This document shows, piece after piece, positions 1,212 through 57,301 of a stretch of DNA of 64,000 bases. The notes beneath the pieces were generated by a model. The model made no database searches, was not told the origin of the DNA, and worked only from the letters and a program-made list of their open reading frames with translations. Source of the stretch: Opitutaceae bacterium (GTDB lineage: Bacteria > Verrucomicrobiota > Verrucomicrobiia > Opitutales > Opitutaceae); NCBI GenBank assembly GCA_030648295.1, contig JAUSID010000136.1:1-64000 (forward strand), read 5' to 3'. A program made the position numbers and the translations under genes. Numbering within the stretch: position 1 is the first letter of the stretch; each line of letters starts with the position of its first letter.

Positions 1212-1315
1212 CAGGGGACAGGAGACAGGGGACAGGGGACAGGAGACAGGTGGCACCGCAGAACCCCAGAACCCAGAACCCAGAACCCAGAACCCAGAAC
1301 CCAGAACCCAGAACC
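1212..1315 (+). repeat. Heptamer array (CAGGRGA words, then CAGAACC words)
   Basis: Two consecutive arrays of 7-nt units. The first is about six units alternating CAGGGGA and CAGGAGA (from 1212). After a short break come eight CAGAACC units, with one extra C after the first (1259-1315). The array fills the space between the divergent small membrane gene and the Nudix gene and ends 29 nt before the Nudix ATG. Same class as the arrays at 9107, 10982, 45047, 48215, 48351, 51134 and 57186. Confidence 0.9.
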
Positions 1316-1344
1316 CATTCGCTCTGCCCTTGCCAGCGGCGGCC

Positions 1345-1779
1345 ATGGTCCACGTTGATCCGATGATGAGTTCCCGACCGACAGTTCCGGTGGTTTGCGC
1401 CGTGATCGAAAGCGCCGACGGCCGGGTTCTCGTGGCGCAGCGTCCGGCGCACAAACATTTGGGGCTGAAGTGGGAATTTGCGGGCGGAAAAGTGGAGGCC
1501 AGCGAGGAACCGCAGAGCGCGCTCATCCGCGAAATCCGCGAGGAACTGGGCTGCGACATCAGCATCGCGGGCGACTTGCCCGCTTTCACGCACGACTATG
1601 GCACCGTGCTGATTGAAATGATCCCGTTCATCTGCGCCCTCGTCCCCGGCAGCCCGCCGCCGCATCCGCACGAGCACGTCGCCGTCCGGTGGGTTACGCT
1701 GGAGGAAATCAATACGATCGATCTCGCGCCGGCGGACTGGCCGGTGGTCGCGCGTTATCGCGCCACGTTATCAGGCTGA
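1345..1779 (+). CDS. Nudix hydrolase, MutT-like (dGTP/oxidised nucleotide pyrophosphatase)
   Basis: A 144-residue protein with a complete Nudix box at about residues 48-70: G48, E54, then REIREELG, fitting GX5EX7REUXEEXGU exactly. The N-terminal PVVCAVIESADGRVLVAQRP and the short length match MutT-type sanitisation enzymes that hydrolyse nucleoside triphosphates to the monophosphate. Two in-frame starts are possible, ATG 1345 and ATG 1363; neither has a clear Shine-Dalgarno sequence, and both follow the heptamer array. Expected to act in the cytosol removing 8-oxo-dGTP or a similar damaged nucleotide; substrate is not determined by sequence. Confidence 0.85.
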   Translation: MVHVDPMMSSRPTVPVVCAVIESADGRVLVAQRPAHKHLGLKWEFAGGKVEASEEPQSALIREIREELGCDISIAGDLPAFTHDYGTVLIEMIPFICALVPGSPPPHPHEHVAVRWVTLEEINTIDLAPADWPVVARYRATLSG

Positions 1780-1930
1780 GCTGAATTTCGTGCAGCCCGG
1801 GGGCGACAAGGCTGGAACTTTCTCGCGAACGAAATCACCGCGCGTTCAGCCTGCGGGTTTTCTCTCATCCCGCGTTCAAAGCATCGCTCGCGGCTGCCGC
1901 CCAAAGTGGCTGCGGCTTCCAGCCGCAGAT

Positions 1931-2575
1931 TTAGATAATCCCCCGCTCGATCCACTCGTGCTCACCCGCGACAACCTGCTGCGCCAGTGCATATCCGTGC
2001 TCGTCGGCATTGTGGCTGACGCCGCGCTCCGTCAGCGCGAATGCCGACAGTTCGCCTCCCGCCACGCGCGGGAGAAATTTCCGCTTCTGTTCCTCCGTCC
2101 CAAAAAGCAGCAACGGCTGCGGCACCCCCACCGACTGGTGCACCGACACGTGTGCGAACGTGTTCATACAGTGGCTCGCGATCAGCACGCATGCGCGGCA
2201 ATACGTCGTTTGCGAAAATCCGAGCCCGCCGTACTCTCGCGGCACCTTGATGCCGTACGCCCCGAGCTGGGCGAGCCCGGCCATTACGTCGTCCGGAATC
2301 TCGCCCGTGCGATCGATGCGATCCGCATCGACGCGTTCGCGAAGAAATCCCGCCAGCCCGGCCTGGAATCTCTCCGCCCGCGCCGACTCCTCGGGCTCGA
2401 GATCCGTGAGCGGGTGAAGTTTGTCGATCCGAAACCGGCCCATGAAAAGCTGTGCGACGAAGCTTGGGTCATCGTGGGACTCCCGCGCCGCCTCGGTCAC
2501 CTGCAATGCGGCGCGCTGCCCCTCGTTCATCCGCGACATGTCGATGACCGAGGTTTCCGGGTCGGGAGTGTTCAT
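1931..2575 (-). pseudogene. Acyl-CoA dehydrogenase, N-terminal fragment with foreign tail
   Basis: Residues 1 to about 180 of this 214-residue ORF are a normal acyl-CoA dehydrogenase N-terminus (alpha domain FREYGGLG-type loop as VPREYGGLGFS, then GTEEQKRKFLPRVAGGE and LSAFALTE). Full-length enzymes are roughly 380-600 residues and continue after ALTE with PGxGSD, the FAD-binding beta domain and a C-terminal helical domain with the catalytic base. Here ALTE is followed by RGVSHNADEHGYALAQQVVA and a stop, so the FAD-binding and catalytic parts are missing. The protein cannot be an active dehydrogenase as encoded. The tail reads like the C-terminus of another protein rather than random sequence, suggesting a deletion that joined two genes. 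Confidence 0.75.
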
Positions 2576-3131
2576 TGGCAAGACGGGGCACGCGCGAGAG
2601 CAAGGATCGCGATGCGCCCCAGTATCGCCACCCACACCTTCATCGCAACTTGCTCGGAGAGTGGGGGCTCGGTCCGCTCCTGGATACAACGTCGTTAAAT
2701 TTCGAACATAGATGGAGGGCCCGCCTCCCCGCCGCAGGCGGGCAAGCGCGCGGCTTGCCTGCCCTTGGCAGGGCCGGTTGCATTCCGAAGAACATTCTCT
2801 TCGAAAAACTCGAAACGTGGGTTGACCCGGCAGCGGACGACGCGGAGGTCGTCCCTCCATCGTATGTCTAATTATTTGTGACGCCCTGTTTAGACCATGC
2901 GGGCGGGACGCCCGCGCTCCCGGGTCGAGCCTCCGAACCGTAGCAGCCGAGGTAACGAGGCTGGCCCATCCGGTAGAAGGAGCAATCCGCCCGCTGAGGT
3001 AACAAGGCTGTCATCCAGTGGGAGCCCCAGCCTCGTCACCTCGGCTGCTACAGGCACGGGCGGCCAAGCCGCCGGCCCGATCGCCACCATCTGCCACTCG
3101 ACAGCGGCGTGCGCTCGTCTTGAATGGGCCG
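2576..3131. other. Gene-free stretch with dispersed repeats
   Basis: About 555 nt without a supportable gene. It holds a GGAGGGC...CCCTCCAT inverted pair around 2710-2866, a piece of the GCGGGCGGGACGCCCGCGC palindrome family at about 2899-2923, and the inverted pair described at 2940-3051. No promoter or RNA gene could be recognised. Confidence 0.6.
2940..3051. repeat. Inverted repeat pair, GTAGCAGCCGAGG family
   Basis: A 25-nt arm at 2940-2964 (beginning GTAGCAGCCGAGGTAACGAG) is the near-perfect reverse complement of 3027-3051, with a partial copy of the arm between them near 2994-3010. The same arm pair recurs at 53262-53332. This arrangement suggests a small mobile palindromic element rather than a site specific to the neighbouring gene. 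Confidence 0.85.
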
Positions 3132-5873
3132 ATGCCGACCGCGCCGCATCCGCTCGATTCCGTCTGCCGGCTCCCGTCGGCGGATGACAACGTCGCGATT
3201 GCCACCCGGCGGCTGGATGCGGGAACGCGGATCGTGCTCGAGGGCGGCGCGCTCGAACTTCCGCACACCGTCCTCGAGGGACACCGGTTCGCGCTGCGGA
3301 TGATTCGCCGCGGCGACTCGCTGCTCTCGTGGGGGCTGCCATTCGGAGTCGCTCTCGTCGACATCGAGCCGGGGGATTACGTGTGCAATGCCTCCATCCT
3401 CGAGGCGCTTGCGGTGCGCCGGGTCGAGGGTGCCTCTTTTCCGGCGGGGCCCAACTTTGCCGATCACCTGCAGCGTTTTGTTTTCGACGAACGAAAATTC
3501 CAGCCGACGCCGGCGGTGCCGCGCGTCGCCCTGCCGCGCAGCTTTGCCGGATACCGGCGGCCGGGCGGACGCGGTATCGGCACGCGCAACACGATTGTCA
3601 TCCTGGGCACCACGTCGCGCACCGCGAGTTTCGCGCGGCAGCTGGCAACGCGGCTCCAGCCACTGGCGCGCGTCCATCCTTCGATCGATGGCATCGTCGC
3701 CGTCGCGCATACGGAGGGCGGCGGCACGGCTGAACCGAACAATACGGCCGAGATCCTGCGCGCGCTCGCCGGCTTCATCGTGCACCCCAATGTCGGCGCG
3801 GTGCTGGCGATCGATTACGGCGTCGAACCGATCACGAACGCACGGCTGCAAAACTTCATGCGCGACGCCGGCTATCCGCTCGAGCAGGTGCCGCATCATT
3901 TTCTCACGTTGCGCGGCGGACTTGCGGGCGGACTCGCGGAGGGTGAATCGATTGTCCGCGGCTGGCTGCCGCAGGTGGCGGCGCAGCGCCGCACGGAGGA
4001 ACCGGTTTCGGCACTGCGCGTGGCATTGCAGTGCGGCGGCTCGGACGCTTTTTCGGGCGTATCCGGAAATCCACTCGCCGGTGCCGTGGTGCACGAGGTC
4101 ATCCGCCACGGCGGGATCGGCGTGCTGACCGAAACGGACGAGTCGATGGGCGCCGAGGGCTACATGCTGAAGAACGTGCGGGATCTCGCGACCGCTCGCG
4201 CGTTCGTGGCGCGACTGGACCAGTTCCGCGAGAAGCTCATGTGGCACGGGCTGACGCCCGAGAGCAATCCCTCGGCCGGCAACCGGTTCCGCGGGCTCTA
4301 CAACATCGCGCTGAAGTCGCTCGGTGCCGTGCACAAGAAGGATCCGCGCACGCGGCTCGACCACGTGATCGATTACGCGCAGCCGCTCACCGAGCCCGGA
4401 TTTTACTTCATGAACGGGCCGGGCAACGATCTCGAGGGCATCGCGGGCCAGGTCGGCGCGGGTTGCAACCTGCTGGTCTTCGTCACCGGCAACGGCTCGG
4501 TGACGAATTTCCCGTTCGTGCCAACGCTGAAGATCACCACCACGACGCGGCGGCACGAGCTGCTGATTCACGAGATGGACGTGAATGCCGGGCGTTACCT
4601 CGACGGTGAGTCGATGGCGGCGCTCACGACGGAAACATTCGAACTCGTCATCGCCACCGCGTCAGGCCGCAAAACGCGCGGCGAGCACGCGGGCCACTCG
4701 CAGGTTTCGCTCTGGCGCGACTGGCGGCAGACCGACACCTCACGGCTCGCGGCATTGAAGGCGCGCCCAGTGCCGGACGGCATGCCGTTGCCCGCCCGTG
4801 GCAGCGGCCTCGAGCCGCAGACCGAAACAAAGCACGGCACGGAACCCGCTGCCGTTTTCCAAGGCTATCCGATCAGCGGCGGTCGTTTCGCGACCGAGCG
4901 CGTCGGATTGGTGCTGCCGACGAGCATGTGCTCCACGCAGATCGCGCGGCTGGCGGCCGAGCGGTTGAACGCGAGCAAAGTTGGAGGCGAGCAGGGCATT
5001 TCGCGTTTCGTCGCCTTTGGGCACAGCGAAGGCTGCGGGTTCGGCGGCGAGACGATGTATCAGCTTTTGCAACGCACCTATCGCGGGTTCGTCACGCACC
5101 CGAATGTCGCCGCCGCGCTCCTGCTCGAACACGGTTGCGAGAAAATTCCGAATGACATCATGCGCCGGCAACTCGAAGCGAGCGGGTTGCCGCTGGATCG
5201 GTTTGGCTGGGCCAGCGTCCAGCTGGACGGCGGAATCGACAAGGTTCTTGGCAAGGTCGAGGCCTGGTTCGATCACGCCGTCACTACACTGCCGGGCGCG
5301 CCGCTGGCGGCCTGCGATCTCGGCGCGCTGAATGTCGCGCTGCTGAGCGCCGGAACGGTGAGCGCGGAAACGGCCGCGGCGTTCGCGTCCGTGGCGCGGC
5401 AGATTCTCGATGCCGGTGGCTCGGTCTTGCTGCCCGAGAGCGACGCACTGCTCGCGGCGGCCGTATTCCGAAAACCTTTGCTGGGCGAAGCCGCGCCGCA
5501 CGCGACGCTCGCGTATGGCCAGCCGCTCGAACTTCGCGGGTTGCACGTCGTGGCGACGGAAACGGAGCACTGGAGCGAGAACGTCACGGGCCTGGCCGCG
5601 TGCGGCGCGCACCTTGCGGTCGGGATCGTGGCCGATCACGCGCAACAGGGGCACCCGTTGATTCCCGTGATTCAGGCCGTCGAAGCCGGCCGCAGCGCAG
5701 CGATGGCGGCGGACGACGTCGATCTCATGCTGAGCGGCGATTCGATCGCCGACGCGCGCGCCGCCCTGGAGTGGATCACCGCGGTGGCAACGCGCGAACG
5801 GATTCCGGCGTCGATGGCGCACGGTTTCGTGGATTTTCAGCTCACCCGCGGCGAGCTTGGGCTGACGACCTGA
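3132..5873 (+). CDS. Altronate/galactarate dehydratase family protein with duplicated UxaA domain
   Basis: A 913-residue protein of the UxaA/GarD family, which dehydrates sugar acids such as altronate or galactarate to 2-keto-3-deoxy products using iron. The N-terminal about 90 residues are a SAF-like domain (DAGTRIVLEGG, SWGLPFGVALVDIEPGDYV). A first UxaA core follows (GIGTRNTIVILGTTSRTA, FMNGPGNDLEGIAGQVGAGC, GNGSVTNFPFVPTLKIT), then a second UxaA-like half at about residues 610-880 (GLVLPTSMCSTQIA, FGHSEGCGFGGETM). Family members are usually near 500 residues, so this is a fused or internally duplicated version. ATG 3132 starts a protein MPTAPHPLDS; upstream in-frame sequence is repeat-derived. 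The stop is followed by the tmRNA locus. Confidence 0.85.
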   Translation: MPTAPHPLDSVCRLPSADDNVAIATRRLDAGTRIVLEGGALELPHTVLEGHRFALRMIRRGDSLLSWGLPFGVALVDIEPGDYVCNASILEALAVRRVEGASFPAGPNFADHLQRFVFDERKFQPTPAVPRVALPRSFAGYRRPGGRGIGTRNTIVILGTTSRTASFARQLATRLQPLARVHPSIDGIVAVAHTEGGGTAEPNNTAEILRALAGFIVHPNVGAVLAIDYGVEPITNARLQNFMRDAGYPLEQVPHHFLTLRGGLAGGLAEGESIVRGWLPQVAAQRRTEEPVSALRVALQCGGSDAFSGVSGNPLAGAVVHEVIRHGGIGVLTETDESMGAEGYMLKNVRDLATARAFVARLDQFREKLMWHGLTPESNPSAGNRFRGLYNIALKSLGAVHKKDPRTRLDHVIDYAQPLTEPGFYFMNGPGNDLEGIAGQVGAGCNLLVFVTGNGSVTNFPFVPTLKITTTTRRHELLIHEMDVNAGRYLDGESMAALTTETFELVIATASGRKTRGEHAGHSQVSLWRDWRQTDTSRLAALKARPVPDGMPLPARGSGLEPQTETKHGTEPAAVFQGYPISGGRFATERVGLVLPTSMCSTQIARLAAERLNASKVGGEQGISRFVAFGHSEGCGFGGETMYQLLQRTYRGFVTHPNVAAALLLEHGCEKIPNDIMRRQLEASGLPLDRFGWASVQLDGGIDKVLGKVEAWFDHAVTTLPGAPLAACDLGALNVALLSAGTVSAETAAAFASVARQILDAGGSVLLPESDALLAAAVFRKPLLGEAAPHATLAYGQPLELRGLHVVATETEHWSENVTGLAACGAHLAVGIVADHAQQGHPLIPVIQAVEAGRSAAMAADDVDLMLSGDSIADARAALEWITAVATRERIPASMAHGFVDFQLTRGELGLTT

Positions 5874-6029
5874 CGGTGGCGGCGCTGTCTGGAACTGACG
5901 CCGTCGTTTCCAATTCACCGTCGCGCTGCTTGCAATCGGCGCGGGGGGCGGCATTTTCCCGGGTGTTCTTTGATTGGTTGGCACACCAATCCGCAGGTTT
6001 TTGCTCCGCCAAGATCTGGTTCCCAAACC

Positions 6030-6052
6030 AGGTTTTCGCGCAGCGAAAACCT
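6030..6052. repeat. Short perfect palindrome abutting the tmRNA 5' end
   Basis: Arms AGGTTTTCGC (6030-6039) and GCGAAAACCT (6043-6052) with a 3-nt loop; the next base is the first base of mature tmRNA. A relative with one substitution per arm is found at 16238-16261 between two convergent genes. It could be a precursor-processing or promoter-proximal structure, or simply a resident small repeat. Confidence 0.75.
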
Positions 6053-6408
6053 GGGGGTGTTCTGGATTCTACCCTTGGTTGGAGTGCGCCGCTGCCTGTC
6101 GAGAGTCGTGGGTCTCTCGTTAACTCCCCTGCGAAACAAATAAACGGCAAAACTGAAGAAATGCCCCTGGCAGCCTAAGTGCAGCCACGTTGGTCTAGCG
6201 ACACCTGCTAGCTGGAACTAACGTCGACAGCAGGCATGGCGCGTGGAGCGGTCCGCGGACCGCGCGCTGTATCTTCGATCCGGGGACTGGCTGGTGTCTC
6301 AGCGCGCGTGATGGCGTGGCACCGGCGAGATCAAAGTCACGCTAAACATGGTAGACGCGGTGCGCGAAGGTCAGGGGCACGCGGGTTCAACTCCCGCCAC
6401 CTCCACCA
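6053..6408 (+). ncRNA. ssrA: Transfer-messenger RNA (tmRNA)
   Basis: One-piece tmRNA of about 356 nt that rescues stalled ribosomes. The 5' end GGGGGTG pairs fully with CACCTCC just before the 3' ACCA (acceptor stem, one G-U pair). GTTCTGGATTC follows at the 5' end, and the T-arm GGTTCAACTCC and CTAAACATGGTAGACG lie near the 3' end. The tag reading frame begins with the resume codon GCG at 6131 and stops with TAA at 6176-6178, encoding AKQINGKTEEMPLAA. The region after the tag is rich in complementary segments, as expected for the pseudoknots. CCA is encoded. A rho-independent terminator follows immediately. The tag is 15 residues and ends PLAA rather than the commoner ALAA. Confidence 0.95.
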
Positions 6409-6415
6409 ATTTATG

Positions 6416-6455
6416 AGCCCGTTTTCGACGACAAGGTCGGAAAACGGGCTTTTTT
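6416..6455 (+). terminator. Rho-independent terminator of ssrA
   Basis: AGCCCGTTTTC (6416-6426) pairs with GAAAACGGGCT (6440-6450), extended by GAC/GTC in the loop-proximal part, and is followed by six T residues. It starts 8 nt after the tmRNA CCA end. Confidence 0.9.
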
Positions 6456-6549
6456 CGTGCGCCGAGCGTCCGCGCCTGTCCCCCGTCTCCAGTCTCCCGT
6501 CGCCCATGGGAGCATTGCCTGCGACCGCGCACCTGGCAGCCTGACAACC

Positions 6550-7155: not shown

Positions 7156-7262
7156 AGTCCCGTGCACCTTGGCGGGTCGCAAGTGCGATAACGGTTTGCC
7201 GCGTTCATGCGGCATTTAGTGGAGCGCTTGCGTTCGACCTGCCCGGTCGCTCGCTTCTTCCG

Positions 7263-8327: not shown

Positions 8328-8870
8328 GAGCGCGCTTGCGCGCGATTTATCTGGTGAAACCGCGTGCAAGCAGGCGCCTACGCGTCATTTCGAATCCACT
8401 GAAATCATCCTCGCTGCCCAGGGGTGAAGTCGCCCCGCCTCGCGGTGGGAAGGTCGGCTCGATTGCGGCTTCGCAAAAGTGTCCGAAGATTTTGGTGACG
8501 CCGGTTTCTGGGGACGACGGAGACGCACGTTCATTGGGACCTCGGTTTACATCCAGTCGGTCCTACAAACGCGTAATCGCGTCGCAAGGCGATGCGTTTC
8601 GCGCGGTGGCGGTGCAGTCCGAAGGCCCGGGGGGCATCGCGCGCTTGCGCACCATTTACCTGGTGAACCTCGCGTGAGTCACAGAGGCGCCGGGCGGCGC
8701 AGCCGCAACCGAAAGAACCAAATTCTCTTAACCGCTAATCTGCCCTAATGAAAATGCGTCGCGACGACCTGCCGCGGTCGAGCGTCGCCGATAAGGCGAG
8801 GCACGCGCGCCTTTATCAGGCGCGTTCCACCGACAGCATCAGCGAAGATTAGCGGTTTCAAAATGCTTCG
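8328..8870. repeat. Repeat-rich intergenic region
   Basis: No gene is supportable. It holds two related copies of a segment with GAGCGCGCTTGCGCGC and ATTTA(T/C)CTGGTGAA (near 8326-8385 and 8637-8690). An inverted pair ACCGCTAATCT / AGATTAGCGGT flanks the block near 8730 and 8848. The latter resembles the about-10-nt-period repeats found elsewhere in the window. Confidence 0.7.
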
Positions 8871-10737
8871 TCGAAGGCGAGGCCTCGAGCCGATTCGACA
8901 GGCTCACGGCCATAGGCTGCTTCGACTGAAAGGCCTCGAGCTTGTCGAAAGGCCTGTCGAGGGATGTAGGCCCCGCGGTTCCATTCACGGTTGGGTGAAT
9001 CGGATTCAGCACGAAAATCGCACTTCGATTGAGGCGTTGCGACCAAGCCGAGGCGTTAAAGGGGAGGTGTTGATGGCTCTGTTCGACGGTCCCCATTCGC
9101 TCCCCGTTGCCCTCTGCCCTTTGCCCCATGCCCTCTGCCCTGATCGAGCGATCGACCGGTTGCTTGTCGACGATGGCCGGCCCACGGGCCGGCTGATCGA
9201 TATACGCCAGGTAGTGGGGTCGGATGGCAATCGAGTCGACCGCCAGCCAGCCAAGCAGCGCCGGCACCGCCCACTTCAGCCGTGGCATCCGCTGCCACGG
9301 GGCGACGGTGACGGCCCCCGCCAAGACGTAGAGCGCGGGATAACTCGCCAGGACGTGGCGGTGCCCGAGCCCCTCCGTCATCGCGACCGCGAGGTAGCAG
9401 CCAATCAATGCCAGGTGGGGAGTGGTCGCGTAAAGTGAGGGCGAGTCAGCGCCGAATTCCGCTCCCGTGGTCCAGAACGCGATCCCGGAATTGCACCGGG
9501 TCCACCACCACCCGATCGCGCCGAACGCCAGCAGCAGGAAAAGCGCCGGCCGGGCCTTGGCCCCAATCGCGTACCGGAAGGTCGGGGCCGGTCCGCCGGT
9601 TTTCCACTTCCCTTTCATGAATCTCCCCTGGTCGTCATCGGCGCTCAAACGCTGGTCGATGCCGGCGCGAAAGCCTTCGGGCAGGAAATGGGCGCGTTCG
9701 ATCCAGTCGATCGCCCCGGCCAGCGGCTGCGGCACGCCCTCGCGCGCGGGCCGGGTCAGAAACGTCAGCGTCGCATCCGCCGGACGCGGACTCGCGGTGT
9801 ATCGAAATTCATAATGCGCCCAAATCGCGGCCCATCCGGCGAGAAGGTGCGCGAAACCGAGCGCCGCAAAGATGGCGAGTTGGGCCCGCCGGCTCTCCGT
9901 CGTCCAGCTCGCCCTGCGCCAGCGCGCGATCAGCGCACCGCCCGCGATGAGTCTGACCACGGCCAGCCCCGCCGCGATCGGCACGATCACCAGCGCGGTC
10001 GGCTTCGCGAGTACCATGAGTCCCGTCACCGCCAGGCTCGCGCCCAATCGCGCCGGCGTAATCAGATGAAGCAGGCGCCACATGCATACCGTCGCGGCGA
10101 ACAAGGTCAGCGTGATCGCCATGTCCGTGGAAACGATGCCGCCGAACGCTAGCATCGGCGGACTGAACGCGAAGACCGCGAGCGAAATCAATCCGCCGAC
10201 CGCGCCAAAGATTTCCCGCGAACACCAGAAGACCAGCAGGCCCGTCACGACGCCGAGCAGCGTGATCATCGCCCGACCCTGACGCAGCAGGGAATCGGGT
10301 GGATTGCCGAGTTCGAAGAAAAAACGGTTGGCGAGCTCGTGTCCGCGGCCTTCGCGCCAGGCTGGATCGGCCTCGCCGACGAACTTCGGTCGCGTGAAAA
10401 GGTAGGGGATCGTCGCCCACCGCTTCACCAGGTCGCCGTTGGCGCCGTCGATGCGAAAATCATCATGGCGCCAGATATTGTAGCCGGCCGCGAGTTGCAG
10501 GCCCTCGGCGGGAGACGCTCCATTCGACCATGAGGCGGTCCAGGCCATGGCGGCATAGAGGGCGAGCAGTGCCGCCACGGCCACCGCCATCGGCGTCCAG
10601 CGCCGCAGCGTGTAACGCACCCCGATTACGACGCGGTGAATTCGCCGGGGAAAATCTTCACGCAGAGCGGGCGGCGCGGACGTGACGGCACGCGGGGTGG
10701 CATAAATCGAAAGGGGGACCGCCGCTAACATGGACAA
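8839..10737 (-). CDS. Membrane glycosyltransferase (PMT/GT39-like), 3' end replaced by repeats
   Basis: Multi-spanning membrane protein with the layout of GT39/ArnT-type glycosyltransferases, which transfer sugars from lipid carriers outside the membrane. Visible are a first membrane helix (MAVAVAALLALYAAMAW), the loop with HDDFRID and the FGGIVSTDMAITLTLFAAT segment, several further helices, and a late GHRHVLASYPALYVLAG segment. After about residue 520 (IRPHYLAYIDQPARGPAIVD) the normal C-terminal periplasmic part is absent. Instead the frame runs through a heptamer array (9107-9143) and a TTCGACAGGCTCACGGCC-type repeat (8870-9000). The protein is therefore either truncated or carries a repeat-encoded tail of about 110 residues. 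The start is uncertain (ATG 10737 or slightly downstream). Confidence 0.6.
   Translation of the reverse strand: MSMLAAVPLSIYATPRAVTSAPPALREDFPRRIHRVVIGVRYTLRRWTPMAVAVAALLALYAAMAWTASWSNGASPAEGLQLAAGYNIWRHDDFRIDGANGDLVKRWATIPYLFTRPKFVGEADPAWREGRGHELANRFFFELGNPPDSLLRQGRAMITLLGVVTGLLVFWCSREIFGAVGGLISLAVFAFSPPMLAFGGIVSTDMAITLTLFAATVCMWRLLHLITPARLGASLAVTGLMVLAKPTALVIVPIAAGLAVVRLIAGGALIARWRRASWTTESRRAQLAIFAALGFAHLLAGWAAIWAHYEFRYTASPRPADATLTFLTRPAREGVPQPLAGAIDWIERAHFLPEGFRAGIDQRLSADDDQGRFMKGKWKTGGPAPTFRYAIGAKARPALFLLLAFGAIGWWWTRCNSGIAFWTTGAEFGADSPSLYATTPHLALIGCYLAVAMTEGLGHRHVLASYPALYVLAGAVTVAPWQRMPRLKWAVPALLGWLAVDSIAIRPHYLAYIDQPARGPAIVDKQPVDRSIRAEGMGQRAEGNGERMGTVEQSHQHLPFNASAWSQRLNRSAIFVLNPIHPTVNGTAGPTSLDRPFDKLEAFQSKQPMAVSLSNRLEASPSTKHFETANLR
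9107..9143 (-). repeat. Heptamer array inside the 3' end of the glycosyltransferase
   Basis: On the minus strand the words CAGAGGG, CATGGGG, CAAAGGG, CAGAGGG, CAACGGG follow one another in 7-nt register. Translated in frame they give the EGMGQRAEGNGERMG stretch of the preceding gene's tail. Confidence 0.85.
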
Positions 10738-11443
10738 TTGTACAGTTGCGTCACCCGCTGAACCGCCCGGGGTGGAGCAGAGCGCAGCGGTTCGCGGCCA
10801 AGCATGGATTCATGCGCCGGGTCATGAGAGGTCAGGAAGCTGGGGAAGCCGTCGATTTGGAACCGGCGGCTTGACCGAAAGCGGAAATTCGCAGCAACCG
10901 CTTCAGCTGCCGGAGTGCTGCAGCATTGCCCGCGCCGGCACAAGGCGCGCCGGCTTACTTTTTAGTCAGGTGGGAGGGGGACAGACGTCAGACGCCAGAC
11001 GCCAGACGGCTGAGGACAGAGGACAGAGGACAAAGCCAGAAGCCAGACGTCAGACGCCAGAAGCCAGACGTCAGAGGTCAGAGGTCAGACGTCAGAAACG
11101 GCACGGCGGAAAAATGGTTACTCCGCCCCCCAAACCGGTGAGAACGATGCCATGTTCCTCGTGACCCTCGTTCGCGCCGGCTTCAGCCATGGCTGGCGAT
11201 TCGTTTTTGCGCTGCGGCTGGCCGAGTGATCGCACAAGTAATTCAAGTCCTTCGCGGCTTCGCGCCTTCGCGTGCAAAGCCCGGAGCAGGACCAAACCTC
11301 AAACCATTTCACCGGAGGCAACGGAGTCGAATCGTAAGCAATCCTCGTCCTCGCATACGGGAGAACGGAGAACCAGAACGCCGGCCGGGTCTCGCGGACG
11401 CCTGCTGGATTGCGCGCCGCGTCCGCGGCCGCATGCTCGCGCC
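10738..11443. other. Long intergenic region with repeat array
   Basis: About 700 nt between the divergent glycosyltransferase and M20 genes. Apart from the heptamer array at 10982-11097 and an about-10-nt-period palindromic repeat (CTTCGCGGCTTCGCGCCTTC) at 11246-11283, I see no gene, RNA or clear promoter. Confidence 0.6.
10982..11097 (+). repeat. Heptamer array CAGANNN, about 16 units
   Basis: Words in register: CAGACGT, CAGACGC, CAGACGC, CAGACGG, CTGAGGA, CAGAGGA, CAGAGGA, a 6-nt CAAAGC, then CAGAAGC, CAGACGT, CAGACGC, CAGAAGC, CAGACGT, CAGAGGT, CAGAGGT, CAGACGT, CAGAAAC. The first four bases are nearly fixed and the last three vary. The same CAGANNN pattern is seen at 48215-48305 and on the minus strand at 57186-57301. 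Confidence 0.9.
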
Positions 11444-12778: not shown

Positions 12779-12867
12779 GGATGCAGGCCCGACGCCGCAT
12801 CCGCGCGGACAATATCGTCGCCTTTACCGGGAATCCCCTTATGCCGTAAACGGCACTCGCCAATGAC

Positions 12868-23493: not shown

Positions 23494-23552
23494 CCCGAGC
23501 AATCCTCCTCTGGAATTCGCGTCCATTCGCGTTCATTCGCGGTTGTCCACTG
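23494..23552. repeat. Partial repeat, TCCATTCGCGTTCATTCGCGG type
   Basis: GAGCAATCCTCCTCTGGAAT followed by three TTCGCG words and GGTTGTCCACTG, matching the right end of the element at 24416-24586. It begins just after the TonB receptor stop codon. Confidence 0.8.
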
Positions 23553-24415: not shown

Positions 24416-24586
24416 GGAACAATTCAGTTCAACCGCGAATAGACGCCAATTCACGCGAATGGAGAGGGCGTCTTTGGGGACATTGGAAACGATCAACCAA
24501 ACGGTGACTTTGGTCGCGCTCGAGCAATCCTCCTCTGGAATTTGCGTCCATTCGCGTTCATTCGCGGTTGTCCACTGAATCGATCC
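24416..24586. repeat. Complete MITE-like element, about 170 nt
   Basis: The left end reads GGAACAATTCAGTTCAACCG then CGAATAGACGCCAATTCACG. The right end is an imperfect reverse complement of it (CATTCGCGTTCATTCGCGG, GTTGTCCACTGAATCGAT). Copy A at 18465-18614 and the tail at 23494-23552 are partial relatives. No transposase is encoded. Terminal inverted repeats built from about-10-nt words are the distinguishing feature. Confidence 0.8.
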
Positions 24587-45018: not shown

Positions 45019-45330
45019 CCACGACGCGGCGCGCGCCGCGCAAGATCCAAGAACCAAGCTCCAAGCTCCAGGGAAACTCCAATTCTCAATACCTGAGCGA
45101 CAAGCGAACCGGTGGAACCACTCAACGCCATTGGAATTCTTGCCTTGGTTGGATGTTCTCTGGAGCTTGGAGCTTGGATTCTTGGAGCTTCAGGGCCGTT
45201 GCTCCGTCGGTCCGAGCGTCCGATTGCAAGTCCTCGGCCGTGCTTTCGGGGCCCTCGCCCCGCCCGTTTTTTGGAGCTTGCGCGAGGCGTCGCGCTGCGG
45301 CACCTCTGACCCTCTTTTTCTCGAAACATC
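45019..45330. other. Intergenic region upstream of rpmH with hairpin-forming heptamer arrays
   Basis: About 312 nt. It holds the inverted heptamer array pair at 45047-45187 and then a GC-rich leader to rpmH. No gene or recognisable DnaA-box cluster was seen, and dnaA is not adjacent. Confidence 0.6.
45047..45187. repeat. Inverted pair of CAAGCTC-type heptamer arrays
   Basis: Left arm 45047-45073 reads CCAAGAA, CCAAGCT, CCAAGCT, CCAGGG in 7-nt steps. The right arm at about 45159-45187 carries the reverse complement (CTCTGGAGCTTGGAGCTTGG). The pair would form a stem of about 25 bp with a loop of about 85 nt, 140 nt upstream of rpmH. Confidence 0.85.
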
Positions 45331-45468: not shown

Positions 45469-45500
45469 TTGCGGCGACGCAGCGAACGGTTCGCGCCGTC

Positions 45501-46243: not shown

Positions 46244-46284
46244 CCGAAATTTTTTCCACCGCCGCTTTTTCGAAATTCGTTTTA

Positions 46285-48141: not shown

Positions 48142-48148
48142 ACCGGAT

Positions 48149-48214
48149 GGTCGGAGGGTCGGAGGGGCAGAGGGGCAGAGGGGCGGAGGGGCAGAGGGGC
48201 GGAGGTTGAGAAGC
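48149..48214 (+). repeat. Octamer array GAGGGGCA/GAGGGGCG
   Basis: About seven 8-nt units after yidC, each GGGGC flanked by purines, leading into the CAGANNN array. Similar 8-nt words occur at 51083-51133. Confidence 0.85.
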
Positions 48215-48305
48215 CAGAGGCCAGAGGCCAGAGGTCAGAGGCCAGAGGTCAGAGGCCAGAGGCCAGATATCAGAGGTCAGAGGTCAGAGGTCAGAGGTCA
48301 GACAC
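48215..48305 (+). repeat. Heptamer array CAGAGGY, 13 units
   Basis: Thirteen consecutive 7-nt units in exact register, all CAGAGGC or CAGAGGT except CAGATAT and the last, CAGACAC. It is the second of three different arrays filling the yidC-yebC gap. Confidence 0.95.
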
Positions 48306-48350
48306 TGGAAAGTCGACGTGTGCTCGATGCGGGCGCGATAACTTGGAACT

Positions 48351-48434
48351 CAGAAGTCAGAACTCAAAACCCGAAACCCGAAACCCGAAACGCGAAACCC
48401 AAAACCCAAAACCCAAAACCCAAAACCCAAAACC
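48351..48434 (+). repeat. Heptamer array CAAAACC/CGAAACC abutting yebC
   Basis: Twelve 7-nt units: CAGAAGT, CAGAACT, CAAAACC, then CGAAACC and CAAAACC variants. The array ends at 48434, five bases before the yebC ATG, so no conventional Shine-Dalgarno sequence is present upstream of that start. Confidence 0.95.
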
Positions 48435-48439
48435 GAACG

Positions 48440-49189
48440 ATGGCCGGCCATAACAAGTGGTCCAAAGTCAAACGGCTGAAAGCCGTCACCGATTCCCGCA
48501 AGGGCAAGGTCTTCTCGCGGCTTTCGCGCGACATCACGCTGGCGGCGAAGGCGGGCGGCGGCGATCCGGAGGCCAACGCGCGGCTGCGCACGCTGGTATT
48601 GAAGGCGCGCGATGCGAACATGCCGGCCGACAACGTCGACCGCGCGATCAAGAAGGGCACGGGCGAGCTGCCGGGCGTCGTGTTCGAGGAGATCACGTAC
48701 GAAGGCTATGGGCCCGCTGGCGTCGCCTTTATCGTGAAGGTGACGACCGACAACAAGCAGCGGGCGGCGCAGGAGGTGCGCTCCGTGTTCGCGCGCCACG
48801 GCGGCAACCTGGCGAGCACCGGTGCGGTGTCATTTCAATTTCAGCATGCGGGCCAGTTCCTGATCGCGAAGGACCAGACGACCGAGGACGCGCTGATGGA
48901 AATCGCCCTCGAGGCGGGCGCAGATGATGTGATCACGAGCGAGCAGGGATTCGAGGTGCGATGCGCCGTGCACGAATTCGACAAGGTGGCGCAGGCACTC
49001 GAGCAAAAGGGGATCAAGCCCGACAGCGCTGAGGTGGCCTACATTCCCACGACCACGGTGCCGGTGACCGATCCCAACGTCGCCAGCACGATCATGAAGC
49101 TGCACGACATGCTCGAGGAAATCGACGACGTGCAGATCGTATTCTCGAACGAGGAAATCGACGATGCGATCACGGCGGCGCAGGGGTGA
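48440..49189 (+). CDS. YebC/PmpR-family protein (translation or transcription regulator)
   Basis: A 249-residue protein of the YebC/PmpR family: MAGHNKWSKVKRLKAVTDSR, KGKVFSRLSRDITLAAKAGG, GDPEANARLRTLVLKARDAN, MPADNVDRAIKKGTGE, VFEEITYEGYGPAGVAFIVK. Members were annotated as DNA-binding regulators and some help ribosomes pass proline-rich or stalled sequences; which applies here is unknown. The start at ATG 48440 is fixed by the conserved MAGHNKW, and the heptamer array ends 5 nt upstream of it. The gene follows yidC by about 300 nt of arrays. Confidence 0.92.
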   Translation: MAGHNKWSKVKRLKAVTDSRKGKVFSRLSRDITLAAKAGGGDPEANARLRTLVLKARDANMPADNVDRAIKKGTGELPGVVFEEITYEGYGPAGVAFIVKVTTDNKQRAAQEVRSVFARHGGNLASTGAVSFQFQHAGQFLIAKDQTTEDALMEIALEAGADDVITSEQGFEVRCAVHEFDKVAQALEQKGIKPDSAEVAYIPTTTVPVTDPNVASTIMKLHDMLEEIDDVQIVFSNEEIDDAITAAQG

Positions 49190-49192
49190 TGC

Positions 49193-49464: not shown

Positions 49465-49471
49465 AAAACCG

Positions 49472-51061: not shown

Positions 51062-51082
51062 CCGGAACGTGTGTCAGAGGGC

Positions 51083-51133
51083 GAGGGACGGAGGGACGGA
51101 GGGGCGGAGGGACGGAGGGACGGAGGGGCGGAG
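51083..51133 (+). repeat. Octamer array ACGGAGGG/GCGGAGGG
   Basis: Six or so 8-nt units leading directly into the CCAAGGA heptamer array at 51134; same word class as 48149-48214. Confidence 0.85.
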
Positions 51134-51189
51134 GACCAAGGACCAAGGACCAAGGACCAAGGACCAAGGACCAAGGACCAAGGACCAAG
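51134..51189 (+). repeat. Heptamer array ACCAAGG, 8 units
   Basis: Eight 7-nt units (written from the CA: CAAGGAC). After about 30 nt a further, degenerate heptamer run with CTTGCTC/CTTTGCT words on the plus strand (minus strand CAAGGGC, CAACGAG, CAAGGAG, CAAAGGG) occupies about 51219-51262. Together they fill the gap before the exonuclease III gene. Confidence 0.9.
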
Positions 51190-51294
51190 ATTTGCCTTAT
51201 ATCACAGCGAGGCGCGCGTGGCCCTTGCTCGTTGCTCCTTGCCCTTTGCTCTTTCCTCTTGGCCTTTTCGCCCGGGGCGAAAAAGTGCGGGCGG

Positions 51295-52056: not shown

Positions 52057-52103
52057 CGGTGATGGCCGGTCACGTTCCCCTCGTTGGTCGAACCCGGCGG
52101 GCG

Positions 52104-52124
52104 TTTTAACGTAATACGTTAAAA
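52104..52124. terminator. AT-rich perfect palindrome after xth
   Basis: TTTTAACGT (52104-52112) and ACGTTAAAA (52116-52124) with an AAT loop, 48 nt downstream of the exonuclease III stop and about 55 nt upstream of the next ATG. It could be a terminator or an operator for the phosphatase gene; position alone does not decide. Confidence 0.5.
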
Positions 52125-52179
52125 GCGGGCCGTCCGATAATTGCTTCCGTCGCCCGCGCGACGGGTGCATGTTGCGGGC

Positions 52180-53178: not shown

Positions 53179-53261
53179 ACGCGAACGATTACGATAAAGA
53201 GAACGATGCAGGCGCAGTCGGCCGAGTTCCGCGGCTTGCGAAGTGGCTGCGGCGATCGGCC

Positions 53262-53332
53262 GTAGCAGCCGAGGTGACGAGGCTGGAATTTTCAATGGCC
53301 CGGTACGCCAGCCTCCTTACGTCGGCTGCTAC
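53262..53332. repeat. Inverted repeat pair, GTAGCAGCCGAGG family
   Basis: Arms 53262-53286 (GTAGCAGCCGAGGTGACGAG...) and 53308-53332 (ending CGGCTGCTAC), a second locus of the element at 2940-3051. It occupies most of the space before the CinA-domain gene. Confidence 0.85.
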
Positions 53333-53398
53333 GGTCTGCGGCCCGCTCGACGCTTTTGTGCTGCGGCCGGTTCACCGACCCGCATCATCCGTCGCGCC

Positions 53399-53914
53399 AT
53401 GAAAACCCTCCTGCGCCAAATGATCGAGTTGAAGCGCCTCATGCTGCGGCGGCCGGCGCTGACGCTGGCTGCCGCGGAAAGCCTTACGTGCGGCCGCGTG
53501 CAGGCGCGGGTTGGCGAAATATCGGGCGCTTCCGATTTTTTTCTCGGCGGCATCACCACCTACACGCTCGACCAGAAGGTCGAGCACCTCGGGGTCGATC
53601 GGGCGTCGGCGCGCCGGGTCAAAAGTGTGTCGGCCGCGGTGGCGGAGCAAATGGCCCGGGGCGTCTGCCGCTTGTTCGGCAGTGACGTCGGTGTCGCCAC
53701 CACGGGTTATGCCGAGACCTCGCCGGCAGATCGCGTCGAGAATCCGTTTGCGTGGTGGGCGCTCGCGCACCGGCGGCGCGGCCGTTTCGTCGCGTTGCGC
53801 AGTGGCCGGATAGAATGTCCCGGCGCGCGCCGCATCGAAGCGCAGGTCATCGTCGCTGACGCCGTACTCGCCGAGCTCCTGGCGTATTTGGAGGAACTGC
53901 GCGCGGTTGGCTGA
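53399..53914 (+). CDS. CinA C-terminal domain protein (nicotinamide-nucleotide amidase, PncC-like)
   Basis: A 171-residue stand-alone CinA C-terminal domain. The signature is TLAAAESLTCGRVQARVGEI, SGASDFFLGGITTYTLDQKV, LGVD...AVAEQMARGVCRLF, VGVATTGYAET, matching the family pattern AES.TGG.. and G...Y....K...LGV and A...TG.AGP. The usual TGG in AESCTGG is TCG here, and the distal TGIAGP is TTGYAET. Enzymes of this family deamidate NMN to NaMN in NAD recycling. Conservation of the catalytic Ser is visible; other active-site differences reduce certainty about activity. ATG 53399. Confidence 0.8.
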   Translation: MKTLLRQMIELKRLMLRRPALTLAAAESLTCGRVQARVGEISGASDFFLGGITTYTLDQKVEHLGVDRASARRVKSVSAAVAEQMARGVCRLFGSDVGVATTGYAETSPADRVENPFAWWALAHRRRGRFVALRSGRIECPGARRIEAQVIVADAVLAELLAYLEELRAVG

Positions 53915-54022
53915 CGGTGGCACCCGCTGGATGAACACACTCCGGCGCTTCGCGCCACCCCTCTCGAGAGTGGACCTTGAAGAACGGTCCGCCGGTGACT
54001 CGGCGGTCGACAAAGTTGACTC

Positions 54023-54700
54023 CTACGGCGCCAGCTTCTGCACCAGGTTCATCAACGGCTGCACTTCCGGGACCGGTTGGACCCAGTCGCTATAAAGCAG
54101 CTCCGGCAAGGTGTAGCGGGTGTTGTAGAGCGTGAAATTCGCCTGGTCGTTGCGCGAGATGTGACCCGCTTTCACCGTGGCACCGGCGTACAAGCCCGTC
54201 GTTTTCGTGTAGGCCAGGAGCGGCGTCTTCAGAATTTCCTCGCGGTTGCGTTCGACTTCCGCGGCCTTCGGGCCCGCGACGGCCTTGGCATCCACCCCGA
54301 TGTTGAACCGGTTCTTGAACAGCTGTCGCGGCGTACTCTCGTCCGTGATGATGAACACGCTCTCGATCGACTTGGCGCCGAGTTGGAATCCGAGGCTGGC
54401 TTCACCGGCGTTGATCAGCACCGGCACGCTCCAGCGGCCGTTCGGACGCCGCACCATGATGACGCCGTAGCCATCCTTTATGCCGAGGAAGAGTCCCGCC
54501 TTGAACTGGTTGAGGATCAACACCGCCTTCGCCCGCTGCCATACCTGCGGCGGGATGGCCGTGTTGGTGTGGGTTTGGAACTCCTGGAGAATCGCCTCAC
54601 AGCTTTGGACGCGATCGACGAGAGCGGCGCGAGTCGGCTCGGCGCGGGCGCTGGCTCCGGCAAAGAGCGCGAGAACTGAGAGCAGCAGGAAATTCTTCAT
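54023..54700 (-). CDS. SYLF (YSC84) domain lipid-binding protein, secreted
   Basis: A 225-residue secreted protein. Signal peptide MKNFLLLSVLALFAGASARA, then a helical N-terminal part and a SYLF/YSC84 domain: AVLILNQFKAGLFLGIKDGY, GVIMVRRPNGRWSVPVLINA, GEASLGFQLGAKSIESVFII. Such domains bind phosphoinositides in eukaryotes and are outer-membrane-associated in bacteria. ATG 54700 starts the signal. Role in this organism unknown. Confidence 0.9.
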   Translation of the reverse strand: MKNFLLLSVLALFAGASARAEPTRAALVDRVQSCEAILQEFQTHTNTAIPPQVWQRAKAVLILNQFKAGLFLGIKDGYGVIMVRRPNGRWSVPVLINAGEASLGFQLGAKSIESVFIITDESTPRQLFKNRFNIGVDAKAVAGPKAAEVERNREEILKTPLLAYTKTTGLYAGATVKAGHISRNDQANFTLYNTRYTLPELLYSDWVQPVPEVQPLMNLVQKLAP

Positions 54701-54909
54701 AGCTGGGCGGGACGGTAAATTTTGGCGAGTGTAGGCATGGCGGAAGGGAGTTGAAAAGCGCCGATTGTGAATTGTTCCGGCCGGAATTTGCCGGGATGGC
54801 AACGGACGCTGGTTGCGGAATCTCACAAACTGGCGGCAGTCGGGGCTGGCGCCGCCGGCAAATTCCTTAATTCGCCACCATGTGGCGAAGAACCCCGGAA
54901 AGCGGCCGG

Positions 54910-55281
54910 TTAGTCCAAGCCACGGGCGGTGAGCTCATCCTCGTCCCAGCCGAGATAATGCCCCAGCTCGTGCAGATACGTGAGCCGCACCTCCTCACGA
55001 TAGATTTCCTCATCGGCTTCGGCAAAATCCCACAGGTTTTCGAGGTAGAGCAGGATTTGCGGCGGTGCGGGATTGTCATGCGCGAGCTCGGTGCCGTGCG
55101 GGTTGCCGGTGAAGAGACCCAGGATATCGGCCTCGAATCCTTCCGCCAGCACGTCCCGGGCCGGCAGCTGTTCATAATGGACCGCGACGTCGCGCGCGAG
55201 CGGACGGATTTCCGGCGGCAGCTGGCGCTGCGCCGCCCCGACGGCGTCGGCGGCAACTTTGGTGAGGCGGTCGAAATCCAT
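54910..55281 (-). CDS. Minimal metallopeptidase (zincin, DUF1025-like)
   Basis: A 123-residue protein of the small zincin family: HYEQLPARDVLAEGFEADIL, GLFTGN, ILLYLENLWDFAEADEEIYR, EEVRLTYLHELGHYLGWDED. HELGH is the zinc-binding helix, and the following GWDEDEL supplies the downstream ligand in this family. It follows the ABC permease gene by 19 nt on the same strand, so it may be co-transcribed with the exporter operon. Substrate unknown. Confidence 0.88.
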   Translation of the reverse strand: MDFDRLTKVAADAVGAAQRQLPPEIRPLARDVAVHYEQLPARDVLAEGFEADILGLFTGNPHGTELAHDNPAPPQILLYLENLWDFAEADEEIYREEVRLTYLHELGHYLGWDEDELTARGLD

Positions 55282-55300
55282 TTCGCGTCGTTAACGGGGA

Positions 55301-57091
55301 TCAGGCGCGCAATTCCGACGAAAGATCGAGTTTTTCGAACCGGCCGCCCAGCCACCACAGCCCAAGCCATACCTCGGCGAGGAGAATCAGGAGTACGGCC
55401 ACCGCGGCAATGGTCACCGCCGCGACGGGTCCCACCAGCCATTGCAGGATGAAGATCAACAGGGCGCCGAACAGGGTGGGGGGCAGGAGCGCGGCCGTCA
55501 TGGTCAACAGCTGGGCAAAGAAAAAGATCATCCGCTGGCCGACGACCTCGACGCCACCGCCGCGGCCACGGCTGGCCTGAAACCATCCGGGAAAAAGCAA
55601 CGTGGCGGCGTTCGGCACCAGCAATTGCAGGGCCACGAGCACCGGCACGAGGACGGCGAGCCCGAGCGCCGTCGCGACCCGCAGCTGGAGGGTGAGCCAC
55701 ACCAGGCCCGGCCGAAGCGGATGAAACGTCAGGGCAAGGACGAGGATGGCGAGCCACAGGATGGCAGTGAGGATTGCCGTGGGCGCGAGCAGCTGCCCAA
55801 GCACAACTTGCCATCCAGCGAGTGGATACGTCTTTAGGATGTCGGCATTCGGCAGATCGGTGCGCATGTCCTGCCGCGCGAATTGGGGGCCGACGAGCAG
55901 GGTGTAGCCGGAAAAGATCAGCGCGAAGACACCGATTCCAGGCAGGAGGCCGCGCCAGGCCGGCTGGGTATTCATCCACGAACACCCGGCTATGATTACC
56001 AGCGTGCACCCGACAAAGACGCGCGGCGTGAAATAGGGCCAGGTCGAGAGGAGGTTTTTCCAGAGGAAGGCGATCTCCGGCCGGCCCACCGCGGCGAGCT
56101 TGAAGGGGGCAGGCCGGCCCTTGCTGGCCGCATTTCCGATTCGCCGATCACCCGCGCGCCAGGCCGCGACGCGCGCGGCGCGTTTCTGCGCCTGATCAAT
56201 GGTCGCGTCCTCGAACGACACCGCGGTTTGCACGACCCACAGGTAGTGCAGGGTGATGACCGCGAGAGCCGGGGCGAAGACCGTGAGAAACGTGCGCGTG
56301 TCGGCGGCGAGAAACGGGGCGATGATCAGTTTCAATGGCCATACCACCCAGCCGAGCGGCGCAGTCCCGGCCAGGGTCACGACCCAGTCGGCGATCGCGC
56401 TCAGCGCGAACTCGTCCGTAAACTCCGGCAGCCGGCCCGAAGCGGGAAGCTGCCAAATCGTAAGCGCGGCGATGGTGGCGAACAGCGCGACGATCAGCAC
56501 GCGCCGGCGCCACGTTCCGATGCCGCGCTCCGCCAGGCGCGTGAGGGTGAAGTTGGCGCCGCTGAAGTGAAGATTCAACGCCGAGAAAACGAACCACCAG
56601 CCGAGCGCATGCGTGAGCGGGTTGCCTTCGACGAATGACCAGCGGTTGGAAAACAGCATCATCACACCTGCGCCGATCAGGTTGCGAAACTGGCTGCTCA
56701 GCAGCCGAAAGTGTACCAGGGCGCGCCGCGTGACGGGCGCGGGGAAAAGGAACGCGATTTCGGCCTCGGTGAACCCAAGCGCCGCGGGTCGCGCCGGTAT
56801 CACCCACATGAGTACGAGCAGTACGAACAGTGCGATTGCCCCCATCGCCGACGCGAAGGGCAGCCAGTCGATTGCGAGCATGGCATCCGCGGTTCGCAGC
56901 GCCTCCGCCGGCGCGTGCGGCGGGAGTCGTCGCGCCGGAGGGCCGGCGAGACCACGGAAGAAGAAGAAGTAGAAATAGGCGAACCCGACGATTCCGCCTG
57001 CCAGGTATTTCGGCTGCCGCAGCCGCCGCAGGCGTGACCACGTCCAGTTCTTGAACGACGTCAGCCGCAGGTAAATCAGCGCGCGAAGCAT
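55301..57091 (-). CDS. ABC-type exporter permease (ABC-2-like)
   Basis: A 596-residue integral membrane protein with about eleven hydrophobic segments, beginning MLRALIYLRLTSFKNWTWSR and ending FEKLDLSSELRA. Early motif FLFPAPVTRRALVHFRLLSS and the large central cytoplasmic loop resemble putative ABC exporter permeases that pair with single ATPase subunits. ATG 57091 is preferred over upstream in-frame codons that translate the heptamer array. The ATPase gene is 213 nt upstream on the same strand, separated by that array; the zincin gene is 19 nt downstream. Exported substrate unknown. Confidence 0.75.
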   Translation of the reverse strand: MLRALIYLRLTSFKNWTWSRLRRLRQPKYLAGGIVGFAYFYFFFFRGLAGPPARRLPPHAPAEALRTADAMLAIDWLPFASAMGAIALFVLLVLMWVIPARPAALGFTEAEIAFLFPAPVTRRALVHFRLLSSQFRNLIGAGVMMLFSNRWSFVEGNPLTHALGWWFVFSALNLHFSGANFTLTRLAERGIGTWRRRVLIVALFATIAALTIWQLPASGRLPEFTDEFALSAIADWVVTLAGTAPLGWVVWPLKLIIAPFLAADTRTFLTVFAPALAVITLHYLWVVQTAVSFEDATIDQAQKRAARVAAWRAGDRRIGNAASKGRPAPFKLAAVGRPEIAFLWKNLLSTWPYFTPRVFVGCTLVIIAGCSWMNTQPAWRGLLPGIGVFALIFSGYTLLVGPQFARQDMRTDLPNADILKTYPLAGWQVVLGQLLAPTAILTAILWLAILVLALTFHPLRPGLVWLTLQLRVATALGLAVLVPVLVALQLLVPNAATLLFPGWFQASRGRGGGVEVVGQRMIFFFAQLLTMTAALLPPTLFGALLIFILQWLVGPVAAVTIAAVAVLLILLAEVWLGLWWLGGRFEKLDLSSELRA

Positions 57092-57185
57092 GGTCGGAAG
57101 AACGCGAGACTTGGAAGAACGCGAGACGTGGAAGACGTGTAAGACTCGGGAAGAGGAAATGCTAAGAAAAGTTATGGGGTAAAAT

Positions 57186-57301
57186 ATCTGACCTCTGACG
57201 GCTGACCTCTGACGTCTGACCTTTGGCATCTGGCTTCTGGCCTCTACCTCCGACGTGCGACTCCGACATCTGACATCTGATCTCTGACTTCTGACGTCTG
57301 A
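57186..57301 (-). repeat. Heptamer array CAGANNN between ABC ATPase and permease genes
   Basis: Minus-strand words CAGACGT, CAGAAGT, CAGAGAT, CAGATGT, CAGATGT, a short irregular stretch, CAGAAGC, CAGATGC, CAAAGGT, CAGACGT, CAGAGGT, CAGCCGT, CAGAGGT. The orientation follows the operon direction. The array ends 2 nt before the ATPase stop codon and lies upstream of the permease start. Confidence 0.9.

Follow-up and report, generated by a model that had tools for sequence, protein, structure and literature searches.

The first 64,000 positions of contig JAUSID010000136.1 (referred to as the window), from an Opitutaceae bacterium with a genome of 9.12 Mb in 294 contigs (G000, the source genome), contain tandem arrays of 7-nucleotide (nt) words, and raise the question of what is held constant when the words themselves differ from array to array. 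Heptamer repeats are already known in bacteria, among them the STRR (short tandemly repeated repetitive) sequences of cyanobacteria, which are tandem heptanucleotide words, and the most detailed study found links such repeats to quadruplexes. The initial annotation of the window had reported arrays at eight loci and proposed that their words share a CA-plus-purine start. The constants found across loci are instead the period of 7, a word that is inverted within the spacer and a G-richer arm on the left; the arrays are mainly intergenic and some of them occur as facing pairs whose arms have a common word but mostly are not unit-by-unit copies of each other, and the word at a fixed spacer changes between species.

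The period was analysed in 775,002 bases of the source genome, consisting of the window and 40 stretches picked regardless of arrays. At a score of at least 14 there were 56 lag-7 segments versus none in one block shuffle, while the remaining lags from 4 to 13 gave 0–12 segments and lag 14, the double of 7, gave 31. At score 12 the number of lag-7 segments was 66, and 52 of these were intergenic (less than 50% covered by called genes). In the spacers of the source genome the lags 6, 8, 9 and 10 were also above shuffles, by less than lag 7, and in the autocorrelation over the whole intergenic DNA lag 7 (0.278) had the same value as lags 6 and 21 and was barely distinct. A period-7 signal throughout the genome, as anticipated by the initial annotation, is hence seen at the level of segments, and heptad arrays are a genome-wide feature of this Opitutaceae-type genome.

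When analysing the base skew of arrays in spacers (N counted as a mismatch; one zero-skew array drops out in the source genome and one in its relative G029) a clear polarity appeared. In the source genome, arrays nearer the left edge had G>C in a ratio of 20:4 and arrays nearer the right edge C>G in a ratio of 29:9 (Fisher p 5e-6, arrays of the same spacer not being independent), and in G029 the ratios were 9:3 and 9:2 (p 0.012). Among the 18 spacers of the source genome with at least two arrays the outer words were closer as inverted in 12 and as direct in 4, with 2 ties, and the mean inverted distance was 2.39 versus 3.38 when permuted (p=0.0005); for six spacers of G029 it was 1.50 versus 3.16 (p=0.0025). 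A scan for inverted pairs at a score of at least 14, covering 790 spacers of 80–500 bp (yebC spacers from 75 bp) from 12 genomes and the yebC loci, revealed pairs in 175 spacers versus 2 after shuffling, and 28 of the pairs had arms with period 7. The left arm was G-richer in 24 of the 28 (p=1.8e-4), or in 24/26 (p=1e-5) when two pairs, L290 and L293, were excluded by eye as not heptad-like; both are C-richer on the left, so that the exclusion favours the polarity. The polarity was found in 18/20 pairs between tandem genes, 3/3 between divergent and 3/3 between convergent genes. Ten of the 26 pairs come from the source genome, five are yebC spacers and one belongs to the hairpin family A described below; once the yebC spacers and the pair of family A are removed the ratio is 19/20. 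Inverted pairs lacking the 7-nt period gave 72:62, with 13 ties.

The two arms of a pair mostly do not share the order of their variant units, since only 3/26 pairs did better than arms with shuffled heptads (p≤0.05). A first test had suggested colinear arms, as expected from local inverted copying (mean z 2.60, 24/28 above 1.64), but was biased by the trimming of the arms to their best alignment, and colinearity was rejected on the 3/26 of the fair test. At one locus (L040, 18429–18595) two word families are ordered A, B, A', B', where the prime denotes the reverse complement, an order that could pair as a pseudoknot and not as a nested hairpin.

The word itself does not follow the rule first proposed. 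A start of CA followed by two purines (CARR) can be read in 11/12 arrays of the window, in only 19/51 elsewhere in the sampled genome and in 3/24 in G029; random words of equal composition give 0.22 and 0.21. Such a start is easy to meet because a 7-mer offers 14 free readings of strand and phase, and as a general grammar it was rejected, with 19/51 and 3/24 standing against a chance level of 21–22%; the CA-purine rule is mainly a property of the 64-kb window. The related proposal of the same annotation, a common 7-nt period with differing words that goes beyond the slippage of one motif, agrees with the present data. The words are not random either: the 63 arrays of the source genome fall into 18 word clusters versus 33–41 for random words (mean 37, 20 draws), and the 24 arrays of G029 into 9 versus 15–21.

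A comparison of one spacer across species was possible between yidC and yebC (gene names assigned with NCBIfam). Out of 44 yebC loci 7 were without a spacer, and the other 37 yidC-yebC spacers comprised 30 distinct ones, 10 of which were bare (6–55 bp) and 20 of which were 79–298 bp long. A lag-7 score of at least 11 was reached in 8 of the 20 longer spacers, the source genome included, with the words TAGCGAG (L137, L145, L213), CTTAGAG/CTTACCG (L225, L226), CTCTCAG (L150/L218), CAGTAAT (L220) and, in the source genome, CAGAGGT together with CAAAACC; several further longer spacers are heptad-like by eye and interrupted by indels. Upstream of xthA, in 30 loci from 30 of the 53 matching genomes, a lag-7 score of at least 9 was found in 7 loci (source included), again with unlike words such as GAGAGGC, TTGAGAG and CAAGGAC. 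Both places were picked because the source genome has arrays there, and the occupancy rates are thus not unbiased; the word at a fixed spacer differs between species. Two features were noticed by eye at these loci. The yidC stop codon TAG in L138/L210 and L137 is in register with a TAGCGAG-type heptad, so that the array starts at the end of the gene, and a similar palindrome-like stretch (approximately CCTAGTCATTTTCCGCC...GGCGGAAAATG) is located directly upstream of xthA in several same-genus genomes (loci L301, L303, L305 and L328).

The density of the arrays varies strongly among relatives. At score 12, samples of 80 kb gave 15 lag-7 segments in G029, 10 in G008, 4 in G045, one each in G030, G031 and G022 and none in G038 and G048, while G018 had one in 40 kb and G023 and G042 none in 60 kb each. 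Density is uneven within a genome as well, as 15 of the 24 spacer arrays of G029 (score 10, 480 kb) lie within the first 80 kb sampled. The closest relatives of the YebC protein are mostly Opitutaceae/Opitutae records, the best one from the same genus being 86% identical. Heptad arrays are not uniform within the Opitutaceae-like group, because 24 such yebC loci (149 kb) gave three lag-7 segments and no fewer at lags 8 and 10 (three each). No lag-7 segments were found in 50 kb of Escherichia coli K-12. In 54 yebC loci of other groups (332 kb, score 12) 16 lag-7 segments were obtained, one of which was a run of N and was excluded; the remaining 15 compare with 0–2 at lags 4, 5, 8, 10, 11 and 13, 3–8 at triplet lags and 9 at lag 14. 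They fall in 5 of the 54 loci, facing or at gene edges: a facing pair in Omnitrophota (L158), GCGGATT past one gene and CCCCAAC ahead of another in Methylomirabilota (L170), two pairs whose left arm is the C-rich one in Kiritimatiellae (L173), a facing pair in Desulfobulbaceae (L177) and a locus in Ignavibacteria (L197). Facing or gene-edge heptads are therefore not confined to Opitutaceae-type genomes. It is conceivable, though only with reserve, that they represent a widespread intergenic element of free sequence in which only the 7-nt unit and the facing arms, G-richer first, are constant. If so, each genome would supply its own words, those at a given spacer would be replaced over time, and the quadruplex-forming heptamers of Xanthomonas would be a special case in which the word contains GGG.

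The array reported at 45047–45187 has a different anatomy from the others. What had been described as a single array consists of two inverted arms with a 66-nt loop between them, the left arm at 45042–45082 on the plus strand (AAGNNCC heptads), 23 bp past a gamma-glutamyltransferase open reading frame (ORF), and the right arm at 45149–45191, with AAGNNCC words on the minus strand; the RNA fold of the arm pair has a z of -8.5. It represents a single member of a dispersed family of hairpins, here called family A, with conserved arms (GAAGCTCC-AAGATCC-AAGCTCC-AGAGAAACACCAA) and unrelated loops. In 61 sequences of the source genome, 20 of which were retrieved because they match family A, 59 arms were counted, and neighbours within 300 bp were arranged left-right (L-R) in 24 cases, L-L in 3, R-R in 3 and R-L in none; the 40 stretches picked regardless of arrays held two single arms only. 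Among 18 loops none of the 153 pairs scored at least 15 (best 13.2), with a mean of 8.0 slightly above the 6.8 of shuffles, and left arms resembled the right arm of their own element no more closely than the right arms of other elements (p=0.33; 18 of 24 pairs, short arms left out). Of 29 elements 26 are situated in called spacers, three of those 26 being divergent. Matches to the family were found in 9/95 genomes searched and in 24/384 of the class, many of them short pieces, the source being included in both. The 25 loci read in other genomes comprise 19 distinct ones, 14 of them L-R, 2 L-R-R, 3 single arms and none R-L. A variant, AAATTCC, is present in 0/59 arms of the source genome but in both arms at two loci of G042, and also in G017, G046 and G048.

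The explanation that is favoured, as a tentative choice, is that the arrays are intergenic heptad elements produced by 7-nt slippage on the arms of inverted repeats and probably kept as stem-loops at gene borders. Where a spacer has two arrays, they typically carry one word on opposite strands, which allows them to pair. Each arm of an intergenic inverted repeat would lengthen separately in 7-nt steps by replication slippage, the probable maker of the arrays; in this reading the arms share a word and not the order of units because they grow separately. The word would drift over time while unit length and facing layout persist, and the transcript of the spacer would fold into a long, slip-tolerant stem-loop parting the adjacent genes, which is probably the reason for its retention. 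A relation between heptamers and the stretch of DNA that the polymerase holds was reportedly suggested by Mrazek in 2007. In RNA folding, 5 out of 7 sequences had z values from -3.4 to -9.8.

A number of observations weigh against this explanation. Two of the folds were weak (L239, z -2.3; the yebC leader array alone, z -0.4), and in tandem-gene spacers 23 G-U versus 37 A-C mismatches gave no excess of G-U and thus no indication of selection on RNA pairing; such an excess was likewise missing from the non-periodic pairs intended as a positive control (101 versus 106). Just 10 of the 26 pairs come from the source genome, versus 41 array-bearing spacers sampled there, so that most of its arrays were not scored as paired. 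Closeness to gene edges was weak (Kolmogorov-Smirnov (KS) p 0.09 and 0.04) and a depletion from divergent spacers was not significant (p 0.18 and 0.74). Words repeat across spacers of one genome above the random level, for which slippage alone gives no account, and family A keeps conserved arms around unrelated loops with a polarity opposite to that of the other pairs.

The behaviour of family A and the recurrence of words bring to mind dispersed selfish elements of the type of MITEs (miniature inverted-repeat transposable elements) or REP (repetitive extragenic palindromic) sequences, the word families then being copies moved by an enzyme that recognises inverted arms. The prevailing L-R arrangement of family A (24 L-R, 0 R-L), its single consensus across genera and the word families common to several spacers are all in line with such an origin. 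Nevertheless it appears unlikely, though deserving of attention, since the family-A loops are unrelated and therefore no internal body has been copied; the copied sequence between inverted ends that marks a MITE was not found in the 18 loops of family A. A Y1 transposase domain (PF01797) is present in 20/22 genomes searched, but the drafts G042 and G048 (97% and 95% complete) gave 0 matches to it despite 20 and 15 family-A matches, and mobilisation of family A by a RAYT (REP-associated tyrosine transposase) is accordingly disfavoured. Slightly less likely still is that the arrays are mutational debris only, heptad slippage without any retained function. The drift of the words, the loose arms, the patchy density (between 0 and 15 segments in 80 kb, depending on the relative) and the failure to find an RNA-pairing signature are what debris would give, yet undirected slippage would be expected neither to produce the same polarity in tandem, divergent and convergent spacers nor to fill one spacer with unlike words, as at yebC and xthA, both loci having been chosen for their arrays in the source genome.

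Arrayed sites for a protein that reads heptads, for instance a leader-binding or nucleoid protein, are improbable: some families, by eye, do hold a core of 4–5 nt with 2–3 free positions (AAGNNCC, CAGANNN) and C-rich arrays can stop right ahead of start codons (48361–48434), but the words differ among spacers of one genome and among species at one spacer, and such variation is hard to reconcile with a protein that reads the sequence. For G-quadruplexes (and i-motifs), put forward for the heptamers of Xanthomonas and Nostoc, the shared layout (in Xanthomonas the pairs are convergent and the arm rich in G is closer to its 5' neighbouring ORF; PMC4692102) is outweighed by the rarity of the motif, and such elements are very improbable here. 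Four runs of at least three G are present in 4/63 arrays of the source genome, 0/24 of G029 and 2/26 inverted pairs, and the quadruplex was rejected as a general cause on these counts.

At most of the eight loci of the window the reported period of 7 was recovered with Tandem Repeats Finder (TRF), with the exception in anatomy at 45047–45187 given above and with weak arrays at 9108–9141 and 51225–51260. In the spacer 1098–1401 a G-rich array on the left (1207–1250, plus strand, CAGGGGA/CAGGAGA, skew +0.59) is followed by a C-rich one on the right (1259–1317, plus strand, CAGAACC, skew -0.55), both found with TRF. The run at 9108–9141 (TRF; lag-7 score 14.5) consists of about five units of CAGAGGG/CAAAGGG on the minus strand and sits within the called minus-strand ORF 8839–10620, outside any spacer. 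The spacer 10621–11443 holds the words CAGACGT/CAGACGC/CAGAAGC/CAGAGGT at 10982–11096 on the plus strand (TRF). Between yidC and yebC three plus-strand arrays were identified with TRF: an 8-nt array (CGGAGGGG/CAGAGGGG, 48144–48205) immediately 3' of yidC, a G-rich 7-nt array in the left portion of the spacer (CAGAGGT/CAGAGGC, 48215–48302) and a C-rich one (CAAAACC/CGAAACC, 48361–48434) that ends 5 bp upstream of the yebC start. Upstream of the gene for exodeoxyribonuclease III an 8-nt array (GAGGGACG, 51083–51134) adjoins a perfect 7-nt array of CAAGGAC (51132–51189, 100% matches), both on the plus strand and found with TRF, and the latter is faced by the degenerate array 51225–51260, with CAAAGGG/CAAGGAG/CAACGAG on the minus strand. 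The spacer 57092–57303 contains a TRF array of CAGANNN on the minus strand (57187–57305).

The presence of 8-nt arrays beside heptads, also part of the initial annotation, holds for 48144–48205 and 51083–51134; both adjoin 7-nt arrays of related composition, as if the unit had shifted by one base. The yebC frame is open across the upstream 7-nt arrays (ORF 48206–49189), and annotation software could call its start too early. TRF also detected a 17-nt tandem repeat (GGAAGAACGCGAGACGT) at 57096–57135, next to the array 57187–57305, and two 10-nt arrays with the common unit ATTCGCGTCC at 23515–23541 and 24540–24566, about 1 kb apart; lag 10 is also elevated in the source genome (20 segments at score 12). 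In a search of RNA families the sole match of the window above the gathering score was tmRNA (6053–6408, Rfam RF00023), and a known RNA family was rejected as the identity of the arrays.

A recurring layout with a free word makes it possible to ask separately why the unit has seven bases and why the arms face each other, and speaks against quadruplexes as the general cause. In addition, a single spacer that is seen in many species, bare or filled, with both neighbours known, lends itself to comparative work. Literature searches brought up no account of facing heptads in Verrucomicrobia, and the systems nearest to them each share only some of the features. The REP palindromes and the GTAG repeats linked to RAYTs are, like the present elements, dispersed extragenic palindromes, and GTAG repeats are said to be particularly abundant in O. 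terrae (PMC3733652); they differ in that they are described as palindromes of 20–40 bp and the passages of PMC3733652 consulted mention no 7-nt period, and G042 and G048 carry family A without a Y1 transposase match. The TAACTGA repeats described from Beggiatoaceae (MacGregor 2015, PMC4679880), with 169 sets of which one is indirect, resemble the present arrays as intergenic heptads, many of them right upstream of start codons and patchy across phyla, but they are direct repeats of a single word, of which one-base variants seldom form arrays.

The closest likeness is to the GGGNATC heptamers of Xanthomonas and Nostoc, for which quadruplexes were proposed (Rehm et al. 2015, PMC4692102); the same paper names three Calothrix heptanucleotides and cites (its reference 33) the idea that heptamers match the segment of DNA held by the polymerase, a fit that offers a reason for seven. 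Two Xanthomonas genomes have 70 and 75 convergent pairs, respectively, and Nostoc few pairs, and the G-rich repeat is closer to its 5' neighbouring ORF whatever the direction of the genes. Shared with the present arrays are the tandem 7-nt unit in a mainly intergenic position (here 52/66) and the facing pairs whose left arm is the G-rich one (here 24/26, or 24/28 with the two excluded pairs), while the under-representation between divergent genes described in PMC4692102 is not significant here. The word is the main difference: neither GGGNATC nor GGGGAYT is the word of the arrays in question, which have many words that change at a fixed spacer, whereas the repeats treated in PMC4692102 have one word type per genome and were chosen for their quadruplex potential, and nearly all words here are without a quadruplex motif. 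Since the layout occurs with words mostly unable to form quadruplexes, the heptads described here are a variant of the Xanthomonas and Nostoc heptamer layout and not a member of the quadruplex class.

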